From an uncultured Lachnospiraceae bacterium (GTDB lineage: Bacteria; Bacillota; Clostridia; Lachnospirales; Lachnospiraceae), in NCBI GenBank assembly GCA_944384025.1, contig CALWRS010000002.1:124001-188000 (forward strand): a DNA stretch of 64,000 nt, given 5' to 3'. The notes beneath the pieces are model-generated. The model ran no database searches and was not told the origin of the DNA. It saw only the letters and a program-made list of their open reading frames with translations. Shown here piece after piece: positions 32,300 to 38,545 of this stretch (positions are counted from its first letter, which is position 1; each line of letters starts with the position of its first letter). The position numbers and the translations under genes were made by a program.

Positions 32300-33610
32300 A
32301 TGAGCGGTATTTTTAATATTCTTCTGGCGCTCCTTATGATTAGCGCTGTTATTATCTTTCATGAACTCGGGCACTTTCTTCTTGCCAAATTAAACGGAAT
32401 TGAAGTTCTTGAATTTTCGCTTGGCTTAGGTCCGCGCATCATAAGTAAGCAAATCGGAAAAACAAGATACTCTTGGAAGCTTTTTCCGCTTGGCGGATCT
32501 TGTCATATGCTTGGCGAGGACGAAGGAGACGACGCTCCAGGTTCTTTTAACAGCAAAAATGTTTGGCAGCGAATCAGCGTCGTTGTAGCAGGGCCGATAT
32601 TTAATTTCTTGCTTGCGTTTGGCATGGCGGCCATTATTATCGGTTATCTTGGAATCGACATTCCTTATGTTACAAGCGTGGAAGATTCGATTTTGGAGCA
32701 GGTGGATTTGCGTCCGGGAGACCGGATTTTAGAATACAACGGTCACAAGATTTCCGTTGGCCGCGAGCTTTCTTTGTACGAGCAATTAGACGGCATTGAC
32801 AGCGAGCCCATCACCCTTTTGATTGAGCGCGACGGAAAAGAGCTGACGCTTACGTACGAACCGGCACACGTTGCTTATTATTTGGGCGTTGTGTATACGG
32901 TGTCGCAGGAAGCAAGCGAACCGCTGACGCTCTCCGGCGTTTCTGCGGGCGGAGCAGCCGAGCAGGCAGGACTTCGTGAGGGCGACGTCATCACCGCTAT
33001 TAACTCCACTGCAATTGCATCTGCAAGAGATTTCACGGAATATATGTCGGATAATCCGCTGGACGGCTCGGAAGTTTCCTTAACGTATGTTCGAGACGGG
33101 CAGGAGACAACCGTACGTCTTACGCCAAAGGAATCGCAAAGCTATTCCCTTGGGTTTGGGTATAACTTATACGGAAGAGAAAAACAATCCGTTCTTGGCG
33201 TTATCAAATACAGCGCACTGGAACTGAAATACTGGGTAAAAGCGACAGTAAAAAGCCTTGGTTATATGCTGCAGGGCAAAGCTTCCAGCGAGGATATTGG
33301 AGGACCGGTACGGGTAATCAGCGAGATGAGCGACGTAGTAGAGGAAAGCTACTCTACCGACGGAGCTGTGTATGCTGCCTTAAACCTGATTAACTGGGGG
33401 ATTTTGTTAAGCGCGAACCTTGGCGTTATGAATTTGCTGCCAATTCCGGCGCTGGACGGCGGACGGCTTTTATTTTTTATTATCGAGGTCATTCGAGGGA
33501 AAAGGCTGGATCCGAAAAAGGAAGGCTTTATTCACTTTATTGGATTCGTCCTTTTGATGATCCTGATGCTGCTGATTTTCTTTAACGATATTCGCAATTT
33601 ATTGCATTAA
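32300..33610 (+). CDS. rseP: RIP metalloprotease RseP (site-2 protease)
   Basis: Intramembrane zinc protease cutting anti-sigma factors and remnant signal peptides. 436 residues. The zinc-binding HELGH is at residues 21-25 in the first membrane segment. A PDZ domain covers about 200-285 (GLREGDVITAINST). The third ligand lies in the NLLPIPALDGGRLLFF segment near the C-terminus, followed by a last membrane helix. Its stop codon overlaps a possible upstream ATG of ispG. Confidence 0.97.
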   Translation: MSGIFNILLALLMISAVIIFHELGHFLLAKLNGIEVLEFSLGLGPRIISKQIGKTRYSWKLFPLGGSCHMLGEDEGDDAPGSFNSKNVWQRISVVVAGPIFNFLLAFGMAAIIIGYLGIDIPYVTSVEDSILEQVDLRPGDRILEYNGHKISVGRELSLYEQLDGIDSEPITLLIERDGKELTLTYEPAHVAYYLGVVYTVSQEASEPLTLSGVSAGGAAEQAGLREGDVITAINSTAIASARDFTEYMSDNPLDGSEVSLTYVRDGQETTVRLTPKESQSYSLGFGYNLYGREKQSVLGVIKYSALELKYWVKATVKSLGYMLQGKASSEDIGGPVRVISEMSDVVEESYSTDGAVYAALNLINWGILLSANLGVMNLLPIPALDGGRLLFFIIEVIRGKRLDPKKEGFIHFIGFVLLMILMLLIFFNDIRNLLH

Positions 33611-33627
33611 TGCATTGGAGGCTTGCT

Positions 33628-34686
33628 ATGGAGCGCAGACAAACGCGGCCCGTTCGGGTCGGAAATCGGATTTTAGGAGGGGGAAATCCCATTCTGATTC
33701 AGTCCATGTGCAATACAAAAACCGAAGACGTAGCGGCGACGGTAGCGCAGATTCGCGCGTTAGAGGACGCCGGCTGTGACTTGATTCGTCTGGCAGTTCC
33801 TACGATGGAAGCCGCGGCAGCGATTCGCGAAATAAAGCGAAGCATTCACATTCCGCTTGTGGCGGACATTCATTTTGATTACCGCCTTGCAATCGCTTCT
33901 ATGGAGGCGGGCGCGGATAAAGTGCGCATTAATCCGGGCAATATTGGCTCAAGCGAGCGGATTCGCGCTGTTGTGGAGAAGGCCAAGGAATACCAGGTGC
34001 CGATTCGGGTTGGCGTAAATTCGGGCTCTTTGGAAAAAGAGCTTGTAGAAAAATACAACGGCGTAACAGGGGAAGGGCTTGTGGAGAGCGCCTTAGACAA
34101 AGTACATATCCTGGAGAGTTTCGACTTTGACCAAATTGTAATCAGCATCAAATCGTCCGATGTTTTGATGTCGATTGCCGCGCACGAAATGCTCTCGAAG
34201 CTGACCGACTATCCGCTTCATGTAGGAATAACGGAAGCCGGGTCGGTGTATGCAGGGAATATCAAATCGGCAATCGGTATCGGAAACATTCTTTATCAGG
34301 GCATTGGCGATACCATCCGCGTTTCTTTAACGGACGAGCCTTTAGAAGAAATTCGCTCCGCTAAGCTTATTTTGCGTACGTTAGGACTGCGAAGAGAAGG
34401 CATTGAGCTTGTATCGTGCCCGACTTGCGGAAGGACGCAAATCGATTTAATTTCCCTGGCAAAGGAAGTAGAAAAATTAGTTGCACAGTACCCGTATCCG
34501 ATTAAAGTTGCTGTTATGGGCTGTATTGTAAACGGCCCCGGAGAAGCAAAAGAAGCCGACCTTGGAATTGCAGGCGGCAAAGGCGAAGGGCTTTTGTTTC
34601 GAAAGGGAGAAATTTTGCGCAAAGTCCCGGAGCAGGACTTATTGCAGGAACTAAAGAAAGAACTGGATGCTTATGAAGTTTTATGA
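33628..34686 (+). CDS. ispG: 4-hydroxy-3-methylbut-2-enyl diphosphate synthase
   Basis: Iron-sulfur enzyme of the MEP pathway. 352 residues from the ATG at 33628, chosen because GGAGG lies six bases upstream; the in-frame ATG at 33610 overlaps the rseP stop and lacks a site. TIM-barrel blocks NPILIQSMCNTKTEDV, LVADIHFDYRLA and VRINPGNIG are followed by the cluster ligands CPTC and MGCIVNGPGEA in the C-terminal domain. It overlaps the start of polC by 14 bases. Confidence 0.97.
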   Translation: MERRQTRPVRVGNRILGGGNPILIQSMCNTKTEDVAATVAQIRALEDAGCDLIRLAVPTMEAAAAIREIKRSIHIPLVADIHFDYRLAIASMEAGADKVRINPGNIGSSERIRAVVEKAKEYQVPIRVGVNSGSLEKELVEKYNGVTGEGLVESALDKVHILESFDFDQIVISIKSSDVLMSIAAHEMLSKLTDYPLHVGITEAGSVYAGNIKSAIGIGNILYQGIGDTIRVSLTDEPLEEIRSAKLILRTLGLRREGIELVSCPTCGRTQIDLISLAKEVEKLVAQYPYPIKVAVMGCIVNGPGEAKEADLGIAGGKGEGLLFRKGEILRKVPEQDLLQELKKELDAYEVL

Positions 34687-37600
34687 CGTTTTTTCGGAAC
34701 TAAGAGTGGACGGACGGCTGGAGCGGGCCTTTGACTGCGTGGAAGTAGTGAAAATAAAATCGTTTCGCAGCGCGCCTCGGATGGAAGTGGCTCTAATGAG
34801 CGAAAAGATTGTCCGGCCGACCGACCAAAAGCGCATGGAGCTGGAACTAAAGCGCCAATATTTTTACGACTCCGGCAAGGAAGTGCAAATTGTGTTTACA
34901 TATGCGCTTCCGGCCACGAATCAACCGGAAGAAATGTATAAGACGTGCCTGCCGTATTTGATCGAAGAGCTTTCCCTTTCGAATCACTTAGATGCGACGC
35001 TTCTAGAGAACGCGAAAGTTTCTTTCCCGGAAAATCGTATTACGCTTTGCTTAACAGAAAGCAATGTCGCGAAGTCGCGGGAAACGGATTTACTGCGGTT
35101 TTTAAAAGAAAAAATGCAGCAGTATTGGAACCGAGAGTGCGCCTTTTCGATTGTATACGCGCCGCCGGAAAAGAAAGTGGAAGCGGGCGCGGACGTTTTT
35201 GATTACGAAGAATTTTTGCAGCGTGCCCGCAAGGAAAAAGAAAAAAAGGATTTGCAAAAAACGGAGAAGGAGCGCCCTGCACCGCCTCCAGAAACTGCGG
35301 AGCGCACAAAATTTCGCAAGCGTCTCCCCGACGATCCGGATTTGTTTTACGGGAGACCTTTTGAGGGAGAGCTTACTCCGATTTGTGAAATTCAGGACGA
35401 AATCGGCGAAGTTGTCGTTCATGGAAAAGTAATTAAACGCGATGAGCGGGATTTGCGAAGCGAAAAGAAGCTGCTTAGCTTTGCCTTGACCGATTTTACC
35501 GATACGATTAACGTAAAACTATTTTTGCGAAAAGAAGCTTATGAAAAACTTTGCTCCGTTATAAAAGAAGGAGCTTTTTTGCGTGTCCGGGGAATGGCGC
35601 AATACGACAAGTTTGACCACGAAGTTATGTTGGGTTCCGTATCGGGCATAAAAAAAGAAAAGGATTTTACAATTCGGCGAAAAGATACGGCGCCGGTAAA
35701 GCGCGTAGAGCTGCATTGCCATACGCAAATGAGCGATATGGACGCTGTTGTCAATACAAAAAAGCTTGTCAACACGGCGTTTTCTTGGGGACATCCGGCC
35801 ATTGCGATTACCGACCACGGCGTTGTGCAGTCGTTTGTAGACGCGGCGCATGCGCTTGACAAAAAGAAATTTGCCGACGACCCTGAAAAGCTGCAGCAGC
35901 TAAAGGATTTTAAAATTATCTATGGGATGGAAGGGTACTTGGTTGACGACGAGGTGGCTACGAACGCAAACGGAGGCCCTCTGGATTTAGAAAACGACAA
36001 AGAGGAAATCCGCAAGCTTCGAAGCTATCATATTATTCTGCTTTGCAAAAACGATATCGGACGCATTAATTTATATCGGCTGGCGTCGCTGTCGCATTTG
36101 CATTACTTTTCCCGCAGGCCGAAAATTCCAAAAAGCTTGCTGCGCAAGTACCGGGAAGGGTTAATTGTCGGTTCGGCGTGTGAAGCCGGAGAACTCTTTC
36201 AGGCTATTTTACATAAAAAAGAGGGAGAAGATCTCCAAAGAATCCTCGACTTTTACGATTATTACGAAATTCAGCCAATCGGAAACAACCACTTTATGAT
36301 CCGCGACGAAAGCCTGCCGGACATCACGTCGGAGCAGGATTTGATAGAGCTAAACAAAACGGTTGTGCGCCTTGCGGAAGAGCAAAATAAGCTGTGCGTA
36401 GCAACGTGCGACGTGCATTTTCAGGATCCGGAAGATGAAATCTACCGCAGAATCATTATGGCCGGAAAGAAGTTTGCCGACGCAGACTTGCAGCCGCCGC
36501 TTTATTTTCGGACAACGGAAGAGATGTTAGACGAGTTTCGTTATTTGCCGAAAGAAAAGGCGATGGAAATTGTCGTAACAAATACAAACCGAATTTGCGA
36601 TATGATTGAGAAAATTCAGCCGGTTCGTCCGGACAAGTGTCCGCCGGTCATTGAAAATTCGGATCAGGAGCTTACGGAGCTTTGCTTCCAAACTGCGCGC
36701 GACTGGTACGGAGAAAATTTGCCGATACAAGTAACAAGTCGTTTGGAAAGAGAGTTAAATTCCATTATTAAAAACGGATTTGCGGTCATGTACATTATTG
36801 CGCAGCGTCTTGTGAAGCATTCGAACGAAGACGGATATTTGGTCGGTTCGCGCGGCTCCGTCGGCTCGTCGTTTGTCGCGACAATGGCCGGCATTACGGA
36901 AGTAAATCCGCTGCCTGCGCACTATTATTGCAAGCATTGCCATTACTACGATTTTGATTCGCCGGAGGTTGCCGCATACAATCAGATGTCGGGCTTTGAC
37001 ATGCCAGATAAAGCATGCCCGAACTGCGGACATATGCTGATAAAGGACGGGCAGAACATCCCGTTTGAAACCTTTCTTGGTTTTTACGGCGACAAGGAGC
37101 CGGATATTGACTTAAACTTTTCTGGAGAATACCAAAGCAAGGCCCACGCTTACACGGAAGTGCTGTTTGGAAAAGGACATACGTTCCGTGCGGGGACGAT
37201 TGGTACGCTTGCAGACAAGACCGCGTATGGATTTATAAAAAATTACTTCGAGGAGCGCGGAATTCACAAGCGTGCTGCAGAGATTGACCGGATTGTGCAA
37301 GGATGCGTAGGCGTTCGGCGTACGACCGGACAGCATCCGGGCGGGATTGTCGTTTTGCCTCACGGGGAAGAAATTTATTCCTTTACCGCCGTGCAGCATC
37401 CGGCAAACGACAATTCGTCAAATATTGTCACAACACACTTTGATTATCATTCCATCGACCACAACTTGTTAAAGTTGGATATTCTCGGGCACGACGATCC
37501 GACGATGATTCGTATGCTGGAAGACCTTACCGGTCTTGACGCGAAAGGGCTTCCGATGGACGATGCAAAAGTAATGTCGCTGTTTGAGAGTACAGAGGCG

Positions 37601-38545
37601 CTTGGCGTTAAACCCGAAGATTTGGACGGGTGCGATTTGGGCTGCCTTGGCGTTCCGGAATTGGGAACGGAATTCGTTATGCAAATGCTGCGGGACACGA
37701 AGCCGAAAAATTTCTCCGATATGATCCGCATCTCCGGGTTGTCGCACGGAACAGACGTGTGGCTAAACAATACGCAAACGCTCATCGAAGAAAAGAAGTG
37801 TACTCTTTCTACAGCAATCTGTACGCGTGACGATATTATGACGTACCTGATTCACATGGGCGTGGAAAACGGCAAAGCGTTTAAGATTATGGAAAGTGTG
37901 CGCAAAGGGCGAGGCCTGACGCCGGAAATGGAAGCGGACATGCTGGCGCAAAACGTGCCCGATTGGTACATTTGGTCTTGTAAAAAGATCAAGTATATGT
38001 TCCCTAAGGCACATGCATGCGCGTACGTTATGATGGCGCTCCGGATTGCCTATTTTAAAGTTTATTACCCGCTTGCTTATTACGCCGCTTATTTTTCCAT
38101 CCGCGCGAAGGCATTTAGTTACGAGCTGATGGCGCTTGGAAAAGACGTATTTTGGCAGCACTATAACGATTTTAAGCGCAGAAACGCTGCCGGAAAGCTT
38201 TCTAATAAAGAGCAGGAGCAGCTTAAGGATATGAAAATCGTTATGGAAATGTACGCAAGAGGGCTGGAGTTTCTGCCAATTGATATTTACAAAGTGAAAT
38301 CGACCCGTTTTCAGATTATAGACGGGAAACTTATGCCTTCCCTCACTTCGATTACTGGACTGGGAGATACGGTTGCACAGCAAATTGAAGACGGAGCGCA
38401 GGAAGGCGCGTTTCTTTCCTGCGAAGACTTTCAAAAACGCTGTCGGGTAGGGCGGACAACGGTCGATTTACTGACAGATTTGGGTGTACTAAACGATCTG
38501 CCAAAGACAAATCAGCTGGATTTGTCAAGTTTTTTATCTTATTAA
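34673..38545 (+). CDS. polC: DNA polymerase III alpha subunit, PolC type, lacking the 3'-5' exonuclease domain
   Basis: Main replicative polymerase, 1290 residues from the ATG at 34673 (an ATG at 34667 is possible); PolC proteins are usually about 1430-1470. Order: N-terminal domain (1-225); OB fold (about 236-330); PHP domain starting ELHCHTQMSDMDAV (about 346) with AITDHGVVQSF; polymerase with GSRGSVGSSFVATMAGITEV (about 723), zinc ligands CKHC and CPNC, catalytic PDIDLNFSGEY (about 809) and LLKLDILGHDDPTMI. After YLVDDEVATNANG (about 421-433), where PolC normally carries the inserted DEDD exonuclease with FDVETTG, only about 15 linker residues occur before LRSYHIILLCKNDIGRINLY resumes the PHP domain. 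No exonuclease motif is found elsewhere in the protein. The frame is open throughout. Confidence 0.95.
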   Translation: MKFYDVFSELRVDGRLERAFDCVEVVKIKSFRSAPRMEVALMSEKIVRPTDQKRMELELKRQYFYDSGKEVQIVFTYALPATNQPEEMYKTCLPYLIEELSLSNHLDATLLENAKVSFPENRITLCLTESNVAKSRETDLLRFLKEKMQQYWNRECAFSIVYAPPEKKVEAGADVFDYEEFLQRARKEKEKKDLQKTEKERPAPPPETAERTKFRKRLPDDPDLFYGRPFEGELTPICEIQDEIGEVVVHGKVIKRDERDLRSEKKLLSFALTDFTDTINVKLFLRKEAYEKLCSVIKEGAFLRVRGMAQYDKFDHEVMLGSVSGIKKEKDFTIRRKDTAPVKRVELHCHTQMSDMDAVVNTKKLVNTAFSWGHPAIAITDHGVVQSFVDAAHALDKKKFADDPEKLQQLKDFKIIYGMEGYLVDDEVATNANGGPLDLENDKEEIRKLRSYHIILLCKNDIGRINLYRLASLSHLHYFSRRPKIPKSLLRKYREGLIVGSACEAGELFQAILHKKEGEDLQRILDFYDYYEIQPIGNNHFMIRDESLPDITSEQDLIELNKTVVRLAEEQNKLCVATCDVHFQDPEDEIYRRIIMAGKKFADADLQPPLYFRTTEEMLDEFRYLPKEKAMEIVVTNTNRICDMIEKIQPVRPDKCPPVIENSDQELTELCFQTARDWYGENLPIQVTSRLERELNSIIKNGFAVMYIIAQRLVKHSNEDGYLVGSRGSVGSSFVATMAGITEVNPLPAHYYCKHCHYYDFDSPEVAAYNQMSGFDMPDKACPNCGHMLIKDGQNIPFETFLGFYGDKEPDIDLNFSGEYQSKAHAYTEVLFGKGHTFRAGTIGTLADKTAYGFIKNYFEERGIHKRAAEIDRIVQGCVGVRRTTGQHPGGIVVLPHGEEIYSFTAVQHPANDNSSNIVTTHFDYHSIDHNLLKLDILGHDDPTMIRMLEDLTGLDAKGLPMDDAKVMSLFESTEALGVKPEDLDGCDLGCLGVPELGTEFVMQMLRDTKPKNFSDMIRISGLSHGTDVWLNNTQTLIEEKKCTLSTAICTRDDIMTYLIHMGVENGKAFKIMESVRKGRGLTPEMEADMLAQNVPDWYIWSCKKIKYMFPKAHACAYVMMALRIAYFKVYYPLAYYAAYFSIRAKAFSYELMALGKDVFWQHYNDFKRRNAAGKLSNKEQEQLKDMKIVMEMYARGLEFLPIDIYKVKSTRFQIIDGKLMPSLTSITGLGDTVAQQIEDGAQEGAFLSCEDFQKRCRVGRTTVDLLTDLGVLNDLPKTNQLDLSSFLSY

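Follow-up and report, generated by a model that had tools for sequence, protein, structure and literature searches.

A PolC-type replicative polymerase without its exonuclease insertion retains a complete PHP metal site throughout a genus of Lachnospiraceae

The analysed stretch of DNA, a window of 64,000 nucleotides from the genome of an uncultured Lachnospiraceae bacterium, contains the gene polC, whose features are listed in Table 1. Its reading frame is open to position 38545 from an ATG at 34667 or from a second ATG at 34673, which is the start taken in the initial annotation, with the first ATG located inside the 3' end of an ispG-like reading frame (33610-34686), resulting in an overlap of 20 bases. 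The run of genes upstream, which ends in ispG, looks to be concerned with isoprenoids and the envelope, as judged from translations that were read by eye instead of by a family scan. The encoded protein is a PolC-type DNA polymerase III α subunit, since it exceeds the cut-offs of two equivalog models of NCBIfam, NF001688 (1468.5 bits with a cut-off of 873) and TIGR01405 (1345.4 bits with a cut-off of 1043). Pfam places an OB domain (residues 249-320) ahead of the PHP domain (348-530), the polymerase region (DNA_pol3_alpha, from residue 667), the finger domain (944-1083) and HHH_6 (1199-1280), with the N-terminal domain I (PF14480, 19.4 bits with a cut-off of 22) and the zinc ribbon both found as matches below threshold.

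Table 1. Features of polC in the window, with positions counted from its first nucleotide.
Feature	Position	Strand	Details
polC	34667..38545	+	1292 aa, DEDDh exonuclease insertion absent
PHP domain, first part (residues 347-424)	35705..35938	+	ligands H350 (35714), H352 (35720), D359 (35741), H384 (35816), E422 (35930)
28-residue loop LVDDEVATNANGGPLDLENDKEEIRKLR	35939..36022	+	at the site of ~209 exonuclease residues in relatives (alignment)
PHP domain, second part (residues ~453-640)	36023..36586	+	ligands H455 (36029), C505 (36179), D582 (36410), H584 (36416)
Palm stretch	37103..37480	+	D813, D815 (PDIDLNF) and D938 (LKLDILG), presumed catalytic aspartates of the polymerase
Clamp-binding region QLDLSSFLSY	38513..38542	+	C-terminal; consensus QxxLF absent

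The feature that distinguishes this protein is located between Tyr 424 and Ser 453, where 28 residues take the place of the 208-211 that are found in the insertion-bearing rows of our first alignment and that contain the DEDDh exonuclease (Exo). The initial annotation had described a PolC without its proofreading exonuclease and a clean absence of the domain from an intact gene, and both descriptions hold, as the frame is open, the NCBIfam cut-offs are passed and a search with Pfam at E≤10 reveals no RNase_T or other exonuclease domain anywhere in the protein, including the sites outside the junction where such a motif would have spoken against the claim. All 20 PolCs of the genus in the first alignment contain 28-30 residues at the insertion site, with the other 19 sharing 58-83% identity with the window protein in blastp. 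A PolC match was obtained in 21 of the 22 genomes of the genus and it is uninterrupted across the junction in each of the 21, including three (G015, G018 and G020) whose PolCs are severed elsewhere by contig ends; G021, which is 79% complete, shows no PolC match. The same PolC is found on contigs L036-L048 from MAGs named Lachnospiraceae or Lachnoclostridium, which were obtained in several projects, and several of these contigs stem, according to their titles, from ruminant stomach samples. Genomes of other genera in the same search display the split match that is typical of an inserted Exo, except for G047, G053 and G058, where PolC was not found. An assembly deletion, which the initial annotation had raised as a possible cause, or another artefact of MAG assembly has a negligible probability: although the named relatives of the genus are all draft MAG assemblies, the same junction recurs in 21 genomes down to a protein identity of 58% and among named MAGs that several projects produced, which rules out this cause. 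The PHP domain has thus lost its Exo insertion cleanly and without disturbing the frame, and this absence is the natural state of the genus. The window PolC is real and conserved and, as judged from its sequence, looks functional, and the polymerase part of the genus PolCs contains many invariant columns.

The novelty that was implied for this architecture in the initial annotation does not stand, as Exo-less PolCs were already published in 2013 and are common in the phylum. Timinskas et al., 2013 (PMC3919608) report that 6% of PolC sequences lack the Exo insertion, those being from Clostridia and Negativicutes besides one copy from Thermotogae, give 16% for the system combining PolC with DnaE1 and term its clostridial version experimentally uncharacterised. 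Among 149 genomes that were drawn evenly from the phylum and tallied by hand, we counted 66 Exo-less PolCs (one of them, in G475, based on a fragment), 43 split matches, 4 fragments and 36 genomes without PolC match, so that 66 of the 109 resolvable PolC-bearing genomes are Exo-less. In a draw from the class, 21 of 147 genomes, the own genome included, contain a single uninterrupted PolC match. A survey of the family with one genome for each of 150 genera identified an uninterrupted PolC in five, namely the own genus, G239, G318, G346 and G246. In the same survey, a second PolC copy of G269 was also found to be uninterrupted; it is a PolC-like frame of 1059 residues (L224, on G269:C9) in a genome whose main PolC contains the Exo. 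The loops at the insertion site span 8-53 residues in all 60 Exo-less PolCs that we inspected (20 cases of the class besides our own and 40 of the phylum). In phylogenetic trees of PolC, the genus forms a single Exo-less group of 23 rows together with G239 and G318, and in a smaller tree the branch that unites just the 20 genus rows has an SH-aLRT value of 100. On the larger tree the Exo-less label requires nine changes, of which eight are forced by well-supported branches, and parsimony on the weakly resolved tree used for the exclusion test described below yields nine losses of the Exo along with three apparent regains, which we regard as artefacts. The proteins described here resemble the published ones (PMC3919608) in the absence of the Exo insertion from the PHP domain, in the presence of a DnaE-type polymerase alongside and in their occurrence in Clostridia, but they constitute one Exo-less group (the genus with G239 and G318) in a family where the Exo is retained by most of the other genera surveyed, and they are here accompanied by a genome-wide search for PF00929 and by an altered clamp motif.

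In the window PolC, the alignment shows the PHP region to be a single contiguous domain, in which the nine ligands (HHDHEHCDH) of a trinuclear zinc site are all present, so that inspection of the metal ligands, as suggested in the initial annotation, found nine of nine retained. A structure model of residues 215-1292 (mean pLDDT 74.9) shows values of 70-97 in the PHP blocks and below 50 in parts of the palm and fingers. Its best match in Foldseek is the PolC of Geobacillus kaustophilus (Gka PolC, 3f2b; E 5.4e-86, TM 0.47), and in light of this TM score and the low pLDDT in parts of palm and fingers we regard the model as support for the PHP fold only. The same entry is the nearest solved structure by sequence and by fold. 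It was also determined without the Exo domain (PMC3919608); however, unlike the window PolC, the natural protein contains the Exo and a PHP site with one substituted ligand (PMC5636811). Asn occupies the position of Asp 582 in both solved PolCs, 3f2b and 9qpc. According to the same study, Gka PolC, with its one mutated PHP ligand, showed no PHP exonuclease activity in the experiments described, and its DEDD domain is inserted in a loop that matches the groove loop of DnaE1 from Mycobacterium tuberculosis (Mtb DnaE1), a protein that proofreads by its PHP domain with nine ligands, three zinc ions and a loop of 29 residues lining the groove (PMC5636811). The window PolC shares the nine ligand types of Mtb DnaE1 and has a loop of 28 compared to 29 residues, although the latter is a DnaE whose activity was demonstrated in that work, whereas the former is known from its sequence.

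We scored the PHP site by the ligand motif HHDHEH[CH]DH (PMC12926913) in 175 distinct PolCs, which remained from 195 after removal of near-identical copies. This set is not a random sample, as it combines the genus, its relatives, Exo-less cases of the class, about 70 Exo-bearing cases of the class, ten loci of the family survey and a lineage with a degenerate exonuclease domain (dead-Exo), and it includes two fragments, L066 and L149, that are unscorable for the state of PHP or Exo. The site is complete in all 46 scorable Exo-less PolCs of this first set, in 35 of 35 proteins whose insert contains no intact DEDDh set (31 dead-Exo PolCs and 4 with odd inserts) and in all 40 further Exo-less PolCs of the phylum, which were taken from 64 uninterrupted rows. 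Among the scored PolCs that do not have a complete DEDDh Exo, the nine ligands are thus kept in 121 of 121. With an intact Exo, the site is complete in 86 of 92 proteins and has lost at least one ligand in six (L067, L069, L217, L218, L225 and L229), and among those scored in the first set none has both sites broken. On the tree, all four PHP losses are located on Exo-intact branches, which account for 64% of the tree length, and the mutual exclusion of both losses is not significant (p ~0.17). In view of this value and of the PHP site being kept in 86 of 92 Exo-intact proteins, we claim a regularity but no proven exclusion.

Whether proofreading could have been transferred to a different protein was addressed in searches of whole genomes. 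Of 13 genus genomes searched with PF00929 at E≤0.001, which are 95-100% complete, 11 show no match, whereas each of the 11 genomes of sister genera included in this search contains the domain in a PolC-sized frame; relocation of the Exo to another gene was thus rejected. In G004, there is one RNase_T protein, and the own genome contains one weak match (22 bits) besides its strongest one, a fusion of Cas2 with a DEDDh domain (L001, 1123-1989) that adjoins a cas1-like reading frame. No family of 3'-5' exonucleases is matched by Pol I of the own genome. Of 41 genomes without a live PolC Exo (42 searched minus G269, whose main PolC contains the Exo, and including the 13 of the genus), 27 show no match to PF00929. 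In the wider phylum, RNase_T proteins are found in 23 of 30 genomes with Exo-less PolC, with 7 of 30 showing no PF00929 match, and all 20 Exo-bearing genomes show the domain in a PolC-sized frame. It is therefore very unlikely that a separate exonuclease proofreads in trans in the genus: RNase_T frames of about 140-350 residues, which occur in sister genera as well as in numerous Exo-less genomes elsewhere in the phylum, would be candidates for such a role, but the top match of the own genome is the Cas2 fusion and 11 of 13 genus genomes have no match, in a search that was directed at this one fold and covered 13 of the 22 genomes, mostly the more complete ones. Less improbable, though still rather unlikely, is a PolC without any proofreading, where replication would proceed at lower fidelity and mismatch repair would bear the load. 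MutS1 is matched in all 38 genomes searched (above the cut-off in 37, with a partial match in G062), and 12 of 13 genus genomes contain, among the matches listed, a tandem pair of additional MutS-domain proteins, which on L252 (2642-4198 and 4210-5754) are about 515 residues long, carry MutS domain V and are located close upstream of polA. No such pair is found among the matches listed for the other 25 genomes, including the Exo-less family members G239, G318, G346 and G246 with two to three MutS-family matches each, and an expansion of MutS as general companion of Exo loss was thus discarded. The retention of the nine PHP ligands in the genus and in every scored Exo-negative PolC would also be unexpected for a site that has long been out of use.

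A further alternative concerns the role of PolC itself, which might have been demoted to a special task with bulk replication being carried out by a DnaE that has its own PHP proofreading. It draws on the C-terminus, where the clamp consensus QLSLF is described as near-universal in PolC, being found in 98% of sequences (PMC3919608). Scored as Gln, two residues of any kind, one of Leu/Phe/Met/Ile, and Phe, this motif is present in 81 of the 92 PolCs with an Exo, in 29 of the 31 with a dead Exo and in 16 of the 23 Exo-less ones from outside the genus but in none of the 18 scorable PolCs of the genus (three more are cut short), which instead end in sequences such as QLDLSSFL or QMRLEDFF. We found no mention of this missing motif in the literature searched. 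The DnaE of the own genome carries QISLF, and in 19 of 19 genomes of the genus DnaE has intact PHP ligands, as would be expected if it were a DnaE1 rather than a DnaE3; these ligands are also complete in the dead-Exo group (20 of 20 genomes, including G377, which carries a PolC fragment with an unscorable Exo). The same possibility was raised for Clostridia by Timinskas et al., 2013 (PMC3919608), and the missing clamp motif keeps this explanation alive. Against it, 21 of 22 genomes retain a PolC, whose polymerase part shows many invariant columns, the clamp motif is retained in the majority of other Exo-less PolCs quoted above, and the motif of DnaE was read in one genome only. Moreover, five Exo-bearing PolCs that cluster with those of the genus in the tree (L027, L034, L052, L053 and L068) also lack the Phe at position five of the motif, and of the two Exo-less kin of the genus one retains the motif while the other does not. 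In L220 the motif region reads QLSLFDML and in L221 QISFTDMF. The change of the motif thus probably preceded the loss of the Exo or arose independently, instead of being tied to it, and we consider a demotion of PolC unlikely, if slightly less so than replication without proofreading by PolC.

Among the three explanations offered in the initial annotation, which besides lower fidelity included a separate proofreader, the one invoking proofreading by the contiguous PHP domain appears from the sequences to be best supported, whereas a separate DnaQ is disfavoured by the missing PF00929 matches. By analogy to Mtb DnaE1, we find it somewhat more probable than its negation that the PHP domain of PolC functions as a 3'-5' exonuclease and provides this polymerase with proofreading. 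Its metal site would excise mismatches in 3'-5' direction, the 28-residue loop would correspond to the loop lining the groove of the PHP exonuclease in Mtb DnaE1 (PMC5636811), and the Exo, if the PHP site was already active, would have been redundant before its loss. Since DnaE of the same cells contains the same intact PHP site, replication errors would be removed by the PHP domains of both polymerases in combination with mismatch repair, and most members of the genus would manage without any DnaQ-type enzyme that is detectable by PF00929. Several observations temper this proposal. The completeness of the PHP site in most Exo-intact PolCs indicates that it is usual in the class, and a site that outlasts the Exo may simply have been inherited. 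The ligands could instead be kept for metal-dependent stability, as the mutations D23N and D226N reduce the stability of Mtb DnaE1 (PMC5636811), though the six broken sites and the substitutions in 3f2b and 9qpc show that folding by itself does not require the site. The RNase_T proteins in Exo-less genomes of the wider phylum imply that proofreaders other than PHP may operate in those genomes, and the range of loop lengths in other Exo-less PolCs that the length match with Mtb DnaE1 is not general. For PHP proofreading in PolC, a genus without PolC Exo, most of whose searched genomes lack a PF00929 exonuclease, offers a clean test, and it has further value as a lead to a lineage of pseudo-exonucleases.

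This lineage comprises 31 distinct PolCs (L055-L058, L060-L064, L070, L127-L131 and L133-L148), which retain an insert of 209-228 residues without the DEDDh set next to an intact PHP site. Named carriers are Lachnospiraceae or Clostridiales MAGs, to which relatives of G061 are added. The proteins form a single clade (SH-aLRT 99), and their inserts still match the profile of the live PolC Exo with 100-176 bits. At the DEDDh positions, the commonest residues are Gln or Ser, Val, Glu, Met and Arg, with the last Asp being replaced by Arg in 29 of 31 proteins. At matched identity of the polymerase, the dead-Exo domain is less conserved than the live Exo, but 44 of its columns are conserved to at least 90%. 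A model of the region in L055 has a mean pLDDT of 71, with values of about 78-95 over the Exo domain, and matches structures of PolC and DnaQ in Foldseek. We did not find a description of this lineage in the literature on the exonuclease and proofreading of PolC, as far as this was covered by a search that had subscription papers and preprints outside its scope. Four PolCs whose Exo site is occupied by odd inserts of 146-340 residues (L203, L213, L215 and L219) show no match to the live-Exo profile and we do not claim them as dead Exos. It is conceivable, with a chance that we place a little below even, that in clostridia selection maintains proofreading by the PHP domain instead of the DEDDh domain, with the latter being repeatedly lost and, in this one large lineage, retained as folded pseudo-exonuclease, which perhaps serves as scaffold for the PHP domain or the primer path. 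The dead-Exo clade also contradicts a published statement, according to which inactivation in Pol III α affects the PHP domain and not DnaQ.
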